DNA from: an uncultured Halomicronema sp.
GTDB taxonomy: Bacteria > Cyanobacteriota > Cyanobacteriia > Phormidesmidales > Phormidesmidaceae
Assembly (NCBI GenBank): GCA_937897665.1
Contig: CALCPB010000461.1
Location: forward strand, 1-10,006
Length of the DNA: 10,006 nucleotides
Reading direction: 5' to 3'
How positions within the stretch are numbered: the first letter of the stretch is position 1; every line of letters starts with the position of its first letter. The translations under genes and the position numbers were made by a program. Below are positions 2,756 to 4,465 of this stretch, one piece after another. The notes below the pieces were generated by a model that was not told the origin of the DNA, did no database searches, and saw only the letters and a program-made list of their open reading frames with translations.

Positions 2756-3109
2756 ATGTTTTGTCTACAAAATATCACTCGATACTTTTTGGCTGCAGCC
2801 GCCCTAGGCTGCTTGAGCACCAGCGTCATTGCTCCTCAAGGAGCGTTGTATCTCGCTGAGGCTAGCGATCGCGATGAGACCAGCCACCGGGGCAGCGGGC
2901 GCATTGTGACGCAAGGGCCGGAGGCGATGACTGCTTTAGAAGGCATCGCCTATCGCGGCACGGGACGGTTAGAGCAGCGGCACGAGCTTAAAGTCGTTCA
3001 TCGCGGGAGCGGTCGCATCGATAACCAGAGCCCCGATACCCGAGCGGTGGCCTATCGGGGCTCTGGCCGGGTATCGCCTCGCGGTCTCAGCCGCCCCGAG
3101 TTTGTCTAG
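2756..3109 (+). CDS. patX: PatX-like secreted RGSGR-repeat peptide precursor
   Basis: A 117-residue protein with a hydrophobic signal segment (about residues 9-27, FLAAAALGCL then STSVIAP) and cleavage plausible near residues 30-36. The mature part is polar and carries four pentapeptides: RGSGR at 45-49, RGTGR at 67-71, RGSGR at 83-87 and RGSGR at 101-105. Each is preceded by H or Y (HRGSGRI, YRGTGRL, HRGSGRI, YRGSGRV). RGSGR is the active pentapeptide of PatS and HetN in Anabaena and the defining motif of PatX, a protein with a hydrophobic N-terminus that co-occurs with HetR. It binds the HetR hood domain and blocks activation. The linkers are 17, 11 and 13 residues and differ in sequence, so the repeats are old or under selection only at the motif. 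hetR follows on the same strand. The name is inferred from motif, signal peptide and neighbour, not from overall similarity. A structural repeat protein unrelated to signalling is the alternative. Confidence 0.85.
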   Translation: MFCLQNITRYFLAAAALGCLSTSVIAPQGALYLAEASDRDETSHRGSGRIVTQGPEAMTALEGIAYRGTGRLEQRHELKVVHRGSGRIDNQSPDTRAVAYRGSGRVSPRGLSRPEFV

Positions 3110-3481
3110 CTGCGTTCGCTGGCTGCAGCCGGCTCCCTAGAGTCCAGCGGCCACGACTGTGATGCCAATGTTTGTCGGATATTGCTGAAATGATGTGTTG
3201 AGGGCGGTTCACAATCGCGCTTGGGAGTCAAGACAACACCCGTCTCAGTGGCTCAAGACAACGGTTGTTGACGTCTTGAGGCCTCAGAGAGCATCCCCCA
3301 CTCCCCAAAAACCCCCAAGGGTAGTAGCATCATTAGCGATTCCGCAAATAGGCTTCTCGATTTTTCGACACTTTGAGGTCATGCAGTCCCTGTGGCTCTG
3401 TGATCGCTAGGTAGAACGGTTGGCTGCTTTTAGTCGTTCTGTCTTTAAGTCATACCTATTAGCGGTATTGGGTTTCGAGTT
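3110..3481 (+). promoter_or_regulatory. hetR upstream region: direct repeat, hairpin, C-runs
   Basis: There is no convincing gene in these 372 bases, which is in keeping with the long, multi-promoter leader known for Anabaena hetR. GGCTGCAGCC at 3121-3130 is a perfect palindrome just after patX, without a T-tract. TCAAGACAAC occurs twice, at 3228-3237 and 3253-3262, 25 bases apart. The second copy forms the left arm of a hairpin: CTCAAGA (3252-3258) with TCTTGAG (3274-3280), and CAAC (3259-3262) with GTTG (3267-3270), leaving a GGTT loop and an ACG bulge. Three C-runs follow (3295-3299, 3303-3306, 3312-3316). TATTAG at 3458-3463 is a possible -10 box close to the gene. No exact DIF1 or NtcA box was found. 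Confidence 0.4.
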
Positions 3482-4465
3482 ATGTTGAGTGCGTCAGAGT
3501 CTGTTACCAACGATATGGATCTAGTCCGTCAGCTGAGTCCCAGTGCGATCGATCAAATTCTCTTACATATTGCTTTCAGCGCTATGCGAACGGGCGGACA
3601 TCGTCACGGCGCTTTCTTAGATGCCGCTGCCACAGCGGCCAAATGTGCAATTTATATGACCTATGTCGAGCAAGGTGAAAACCTGCGCATGACCGGGCAT
3701 CTACACCATATTGAACCCAAGCGAGTCAAGGCGATCGTGGGCGAGCTCGAAGAAGCGCTCACCGAAGGCCGACTCTTAAAAATGTTGGGGTCACAAGAGC
3801 CCCGTTATTTAATCCAATTTCCCTACGTGTGGCTCGATCGCTACGCTTGGCAGCCGGGCACACATCGCATTGCGGGGGCCAGTTTGACCGCCGAAGAAAA
3901 GCGCGTGTTAGAACGCAAGCTACCCGCTGGAGTACCGGATGCTCAGCTGATTACGGCATTCCAGTTTTTAGTGCTGATTGAGTTTTTGCACGAGCGATCG
4001 CAAGAAGAATTTCCACCTGATCGGCGTAGCTTGCTGAGTGAAGCGCTGGCCGAACATATTCGGCGACGACTGATTTATTCAGGTACGGTGAGTCGCAGTG
4101 ATTCGCCCTGGGGCATGCCGTTTTATGCACTCATGCGGCCCTCCTATTCGCCTGCGGATCAAGAGGAACGTACTTTCATCATGTTGGAAGATACGGCCCG
4201 CTATTTTCGCATCATGCGCGATTGGGCGGAGCGTCAGGGCAAAACCATCCGCATTTTAGAGGAACTCGATATTCCGGCAGACAAGCTGCCCGATGCGATC
4301 GCCGAGTTAGACGAAACGATTCGCGTCTGGGCCGACAAATACCATGAAGCCGGCGGACAACCGATGGTGCTGCAAATGGCGGTAGGCGAGCAAGAGTCAT
4401 CGCTGGTCCGCCCTGACGAATTGGATGATGGCTTTGATGAAGAGTTTGACACTGAGGTGCAATAG
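3482..4465 (+). CDS. hetR: Heterocyst differentiation master regulator HetR
   Basis: A 327-residue protein that matches Anabaena HetR (299 residues, recalled) along its whole length with a constant offset of seven and no gaps. HetR is a dimeric DNA-binding activator controlling differentiation and pattern. The DNA-binding part (about 1-105) includes [19 protein letters not shown] and [10 protein letters not shown], with cysteine 55 equal to Cys48. The flap domain is about 106-223 ([14 protein letters not shown], then [18 protein letters not shown]) and the hood about 224-306. In the hood the PatS-contact loop is kept: R257, E260, E261 and D263 match R250, E253, E254 and D256. R230 (Arg223) and S186 (Ser179) are also kept. 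Ser152, once proposed as a protease residue, is alanine 159. About 21 extra acidic residues (306-327, many D and E) extend past the usual C-terminus, plus seven at the N-terminus. The ATG at 3482 lacks a clear ribosome site. The ATG at residue 12 would remove conserved residues. Confidence 0.98.

Follow-up and report, generated by a model that had tools for sequence, protein, structure and literature searches.

A PatX-type precursor with four RG[S/T]GR motifs upstream of hetR in an uncultured Halomicronema

A small ORF lying just upstream of hetR in an uncultured Halomicronema sp. carries four RG[S/T]GR motifs, which raises the question of whether a single precursor holds several copies of the peptide that HetR reads. 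The window, meaning the whole stretch of DNA analyzed, is the entire 10,006-base contig and belongs to a genome assembly of 5.2 Mb that is 90% complete. A sequence-only reading of the window had described three RGSGR motifs and one RGTGR motif in a signal-peptide protein upstream of an intact hetR on the same strand, and had proposed a polyprotein-like inhibitor. The sequence claim was confirmed and is wider than that reading knew. Of the explanations considered, the polyprotein one fits the data best; under it, precursors of this clade would release several HetR-acting peptides.

Structure and identity of the four-motif precursor

The ORF (2756–3109, forward strand) begins with ATG and encodes 117 aa. 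Sequence and hydropathy indicate a hydrophobic, signal-peptide-like leader at residues 1–37 (2756–2866), with the highest 15-residue Kyte-Doolittle mean (1.99) starting at residue 11; a putative cleavage site after AEA (residues 34–36) was read by eye. Four motifs follow on the forward strand: HRGSGR-I at 2885–2905 (RGSGR, 2888–2902), the position-conserved T variant YRGTGR-L at 2951–2971 (RGTGR, 2954–2968), HRGSGR-I at 2999–3019 (RGSGR, 3002–3016), and YRGSGR-V at 3053–3073 (RGSGR, 3056–3070). The leading residues, noted earlier as H or Y, are H, Y, H, and Y, and the residues after the motifs are I, L, I, and V. The hetR gene (3482–4465, forward strand, 327 aa) starts after a gap of 372 nt.

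A chance origin of the motifs was ruled out by shuffling. In 200,000 shuffles of the whole protein, one motif appeared in 506 and two in none; in 200,000 shuffles restricted to the sequence beyond residue 37, the counts were 1,016 and none. The four copies differ in their codons and have only 8–12 of 15 nt in common, indicating that they are not a fresh DNA duplication. Pfam scans of the precursor and four other homologues returned no family above the cut-off; several homologues carry the precomputed label PF28278.1, which the scans did not return. Plasmids yielded no match and viral contigs yielded 14 pattern matches, none of them a relative, and a mobile-element origin was therefore rejected.

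On its sequence features, namely the leader, the motif, the promoter block, and a gene order common to single-motif PatX, the ORF is assigned to PatX. A DIF1-like box, TCCTGA, is located at 2694–2699 (forward strand), 56 nt before the patX start. The same box was present in 91 of 93 distinct patX upstream regions, in single- and multi-motif genes alike, with a median distance of 55 nt to the patX start, where 0.069 occurrences per 150 nt are expected by chance. The 2018 survey of Elhai and Khudyakov is said to have required a DIF1 box within 69 nt for PatX. In most patX upstream regions, a GTAACA/GTATCA block follows TCCTGA by about 18 nt; its form in the window is GAAACA (2718–2723, forward strand), a possible −10 element. 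The DIF1 box of patS, patX, and hetR in Anabaena is reported as TCCGGA (PMC7377430), so that TCCTGA appears to be a close variant of that element. TCCGGA itself is absent upstream of the window patX and was found in one of the 93 upstream regions (G258). An inverted repeat over the promoter block scored 6.8 on average, compared to 5.4 in mononucleotide shuffles (sd 1.3), and was uneven across loci.

The gene before patX in the window encodes an FAD-dependent oxidoreductase (PF12831; 812–2689, forward strand), which holds the same place in some single-motif and some multi-motif loci. With the count limited to loci with at least 600 nt upstream of patX, 22 of 48 in the order and 23 of 40 elsewhere had it on the same strand; within the order, it does not precede patX in genera g7 and g3. 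Taken together, the leader, the motif, the TCCTGA block, and the shared neighboring gene support the PatX identity of the precursor.

Motif number within and outside the order

The window's order is represented by one family of 63 genomes, 55 of which have a close hetR. Motif number was counted in the 53 of these with at least 300 nt upstream, G001 and G048 being excluded for too little upstream DNA. ORFs were located by their motif, the search covering 2.5 kb of the hetR strand before the match; motif-less relatives would be missed in this way, and distances were measured to the hetR match, which is not always the start codon. The patX–hetR arrangement of the window was repeated in 52 of the 53 genomes, with the motif ORF ending 111–637 nt before the hetR match; in the remaining genome (G051), no motif ORF was found in the 358 nt upstream of hetR. 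Two to nine motifs were present in 48 of the 52 precursors, ruling out a state unique to the window genome: one copy was found in four genomes, two in five, three in 27, four in 11, five in three, and nine in two. The three motifs of G037 are a minimum because its ORF ends at the contig end. In the g7 type, which is Nodosilinea by the names of its matches, the lead residues of the motifs are mostly D, F, Y; the g6 (Leptothoe) type has a run of D- or E-led copies followed by two Y-led ones.

Outside the order, 386 genomes drawn evenly across the phylum supplied 35 hetR loci from families other than f7, all of which were read; the same ORF rule gave a motif ORF in 18 of them. In addition, 71 of 80 named loci were read, the other nine belonging to the order. 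Among distinct PatX located within 2.5 kb of hetR, 41 of 42 were single-motif, and Lyngbya aestuarii (L057) had two motifs. Two motif ORFs of G272 lie on the other strand and were left out of the counts. A tabulation of motif number near hetR had been proposed together with the statement that most described precursors carry one motif; the counts uphold this statement outside the order but not inside it, where 48 of 52 are multi-motif. In three genomes (G396, G101, and G414; loci L211, L218, and L219), two single-motif patX-like ORFs stand in tandem upstream of hetR, which is a duplication of the gene and not of the motif.

In a quickly built HetR tree with 147 rows, the multi-motif label required 3 changes, compared to 27.4 when shuffled; SH-aLRT was 83 at the fork of the order, eight f11 genomes were absent, and HetR duplicates had been dropped. 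Confinement of the multi-motif state to the order was accepted after this tree and later dropped, since multi-motif ORFs were found in G274, family f28, family f7, and L. aestuarii. A profile search of the 386 phylum genomes and a search of 14 f28 genomes detected two motifs in G274, three each in G455, G456, and G457, 11 in G289 (L302/L284), and 17 in G458 (L303). All of these precursors sit away from hetR, and the 11- and 17-copy ORFs, both from f28, have a signal-like leader. HetR was not found in G289, where an assembly gap is possible, and HetR_C was present in the other 13 of the 14 f28 genomes. In f7, which is taken as Nostocaceae and where patX is not adjacent to hetR, 19 of 217 genomes matched, and seven of the 15 loci returned (L310, L312, L314, L317, L318, L321, and L323) carried short leaderless ORFs with two to four [DE]RGSGR copies; these figures are motif-ORF matches and not a survey of PatX copy number. 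The short ORFs look PatS-like from their sequence. Given the multi-motif ORFs of several other lineages, multiplication of the peptide probably took place on more than one occasion. Three loci of genus g92 (L313, L320, and L322) contain RGSGRD tandem repeats inside a large ORF, the start of which we take to resemble pyruvate:ferredoxin oxidoreductase.

Selection on the copies and the HetR pocket

The motif copies were compared with their linkers and leaders by pN/pS, given here uncorrected, with pS of 0.40–0.78 and with the copies pooled. In a seven-genome set drawn from the window's genus and g11, pN/pS was 0.031 for the motif, 0.723 for the linker, and 0.635 for the leader. Across 15 Nodosilinea-type g7 genomes, it was 0.0 for the motif, 0.551 for the linker, 0.573 for the leader, and 0.07 for the two flanking residues. 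These pooled values indicate strong purifying selection on the copies, and they rule out decay as the general state of extra copies. Copies with one mismatch were rare: one, against 172 intact copies, in the order, and one in each of five of 124 homologues, alongside 456 intact copies, in searches seeded on shared words and hence biased toward similar proteins. Individual decayed copies do exist: the ORFs of G026 and G027 close with truncated copies, YRGGGR occurs in G052, and the second copy of P0018 is decayed. No protein was seen that kept the leader and its place beside hetR after losing the motifs; this is a weak test, since the ORFs were located by motif.

The surroundings of the motif are uniform. 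I, L, or V follows the motif in 157 of 172 copies in the order, and in multi-motif PatX the residue before the leading X is A, S, or D in 143 of 168 copies; K and R together make up 4.0% of the linkers. Such a context would fit a processing signal. RGTGR, suggested to be a weaker or distinct variant, keeps a fixed position: a Y-led second copy is present in 28 of 32 strong homologues (P0001–P0032) and reads RGTGR in all 28, the other four having no intact copy there. The second copy has T throughout the window's genus and g11 (seven genomes); G009, with YRGSGR at that position, is the exception.

The window HetR scored 240 bits for PF03574 and 132 bits for PF18460 (cut-off 27 each), and its closest named relative, at 98% identity, is from an uncultured Halomicronema. 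In the reported structure of the HetR hood with PatS6, the hexapeptide lies in a cleft where E253, E254, D256, D270, D278, and R223 matter (PMC4649674). All six are kept in the window HetR, as R230, E260, E261, D263, D277, and D285 correspond to R223, E253, E254, D256, D270, and D278 of Anabaena, so that the HetR described as intact also has a pocket identical in its contact residues. E253, at which mutation to A eliminated the binding of PatS6 (PMC4649674), was invariant in all 147 rows of the HetR tree, and R223 and D270 were invariant in all 54 HetR of the order.

Pocket changes were found in two genera. In g10 (G051–G055 and G057), HetR has D256N and D278N in six of six genomes, with one motif in four of five PatX read; in the Leptothoe-type g6, E254S occurs in all four tree rows, with four to nine motifs. 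As g10 represents one evolutionary event and g6 combines E254S with many copies, changes in the pocket and in copy number do not run together in one direction. The window's genome has a second hetR-like gene (G000:C305:299–1192) that is 49% identical and has V at the E254 position; there was no motif ORF in the 299 nt upstream of it. Likewise, no motif ORF was found in the 3 kb upstream of a second hetR in G010 and G011 or of a paralog in G002.

The affinity for Anabaena HetR is reported as 12 nM for PatS6 (PMC4649674) and, in a separate paper, 88 nM for HRGTGR (PMC12756182). Substitution of the first residue of PatS6 is reported to leave the affinity unaffected (PMC4649674). Hence an H or Y lead probably does not matter for HetR binding, and processing is the likelier reason for the choice of H or Y. 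Peptides of seven or more residues are said to hinder binding, as longer N-termini are expected to, and R223 is near the C-terminal carboxyl of PatS6 (PMC4649674). Every internal copy would need cutting on both sides if it is HetR that reads the peptides.

Known systems, proposed mechanism and rival explanations

The closest described system is PatX of Anabaena/Nostoc PCC 7120, which is likewise a small protein with an export leader and an RG[S/T]GR motif. Its leader works as an export signal in E. coli, PatX is cleaved by PatP (Alr1666), the HRGTGR peptide binds HetR, and PatX is induced on nitrogen step-down (PMC7761841; PMC12756182). It differs in having 56 aa and in being discussed with one HRGTGR (PMC12756182), compared to 117 aa and four copies in the window. 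One motif per precursor is the described state in Anabaena and not a stated definition, and the window precursor is taken as a variant. A single-motif 90-aa protein of Arthrospira reportedly inhibits heterocysts in Anabaena (paper cited in PMC5812504). PatS (17 aa, ERGSGR) and HetN of Anabaena contain the same HetR-binding peptide as the window precursor. PatS, however, is very short with a C-terminal motif, whereas the window precursor has a leader and internal motifs and is not classed as PatS; nor does it resemble HetN, which is an enzyme-like protein. The yeast alpha-factor also contains repeated copies of a short signal in one secreted precursor; this is a likeness only, with no homology claimed, and the processing enzymes may differ.

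We favor a multi-copy inhibitor precursor from which each copy is excised as XRG[S/T]GR and read by HetR, with a probability of about two in three. The PatX peptide would have been multiplied inside a single secreted precursor that the leader exports. Proteases would cleave ahead of every X and behind every final R, yielding up to four hexapeptides that may travel along the filament, bind the HetR hood, and take HetR off DNA. A precursor molecule would supply more inhibitor the more copies it holds, and the RGTGR conserved as the second copy would contribute a slightly different peptide at a fixed ratio. This proposal rests on the observed copy number, the selection on the copies, the shared promoter block and gene order, and the HetR pocket. 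The uniform surroundings of the copies, the altered pocket of g10 alongside mostly one motif, and the recurrence in other lineages also speak for it. The points against it are the deletion effects in Leptolyngbya sp. BL0902, the lack of a detected HetR in G289, the decay of some copies, the two cuts that every internal motif would require, and the mixed relation between pocket change and copy number.

The first two of these points would be accounted for if PatX in the order acted mainly on a target other than HetR, through another receptor or a periplasmic role, with the proximity of hetR reflecting inherited history. BL0902 has the same patX–hetR arrangement (GFS31_32390 and GFS31_32400), reported as apparently co-transcribed from a predicted DIF1 promoter, and transcriptomes of its patX, hetR, and double deletions showed PatX effects “basically independent of HetR” (PMC11298460). 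The strain was matched to G038 of the order, which has three motifs (DRGSGR, IRGSGR, and YRGSGR) and, in contrast to the window, no T variant; no mention of three copies was found in passages of PMC11298460 on the pair. The 11-motif ORF of G289 likewise occurs where HetR was not detected. Nevertheless, the motif stays in the RG[S/T]GR form that HetR reads, the residue whose loss abolishes PatS6 binding is invariant along with R223 and D270, and no more than 637 nt separates the end of the ORF from the hetR match in any of the 52 genomes that have one. We therefore consider a mainly HetR-independent role unlikely, at roughly one chance in five in our estimation.

It is much less probable that the extra copies are by-products of repeat slippage and that only one copy, perhaps the last, matters. 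Local duplication does generate copies, to judge by the closely similar DNA repeat units of G027, G037, and the two genomes with nine motifs; the context is most uniform at the last copy, where A precedes X in 41 of 48; and a few copies are decayed or cut short. This is countered by the difference in pN/pS between motif and linker (0.031 and 0.0 vs. 0.723 and 0.551), the rarity of one-mismatch copies, and the persistence of the S/T choice at position 2 and of the lead residues. Least probable of all, by a little, is that the uncut precursor serves as a multivalent ligand binding several HetR subunits at once. The HetR dimer offers two peptide clefts (PMC4649674), and neighboring copies start 10–35 residues apart. 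On the other hand, the cleft takes a hexapeptide whose carboxyl lies near R223, uncut leaderless PatX showed no interaction with HetR in a two-hybrid assay (PMC12756182), and the leader would export the uncut precursor away from HetR.

Beyond the window, a more tentative idea, to which we give slightly less than even odds, is that cyanobacteria repeatedly evolved polyprotein-type morphogen precursors, mostly with two to nine copies in PatX of the order, 11 and 17 in other lineages, and two to four in PatS-like ORFs. Copy number and the S/T variants fixed per position would then be an evolvable dose setting in a Turing-type circuit. Should every copy be released, the yield of inhibitor peptides per precursor would be a heritable setting that has varied from 1 to 17 while the HetR pocket stayed mostly constant. 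The novelty of these observations is limited, as PatX is already known and the survey of Elhai and Khudyakov, which reportedly defined it, may well have reported multiple motifs. A phrase search of main texts found no mention of multiple, repeated, or tandem RGSGR motifs.

Natural copy-number alleles would make it testable whether inhibitor dose sets the pattern. By match, cultured strains have three copies in BL0902 and Nodosilinea nodulosa and probably nine in Leptolyngbya PCC 7375, and single-copy strains are available too. Such comparisons bear on the role of PatX and HetR in heterocyst-free filaments, which has been called a mystery (PMC11298460). A nifH gene scored above its curated cut-off in the window's genome (G000:C802:3343–4155), as was also the case in 26 of the 63 genomes of the order.
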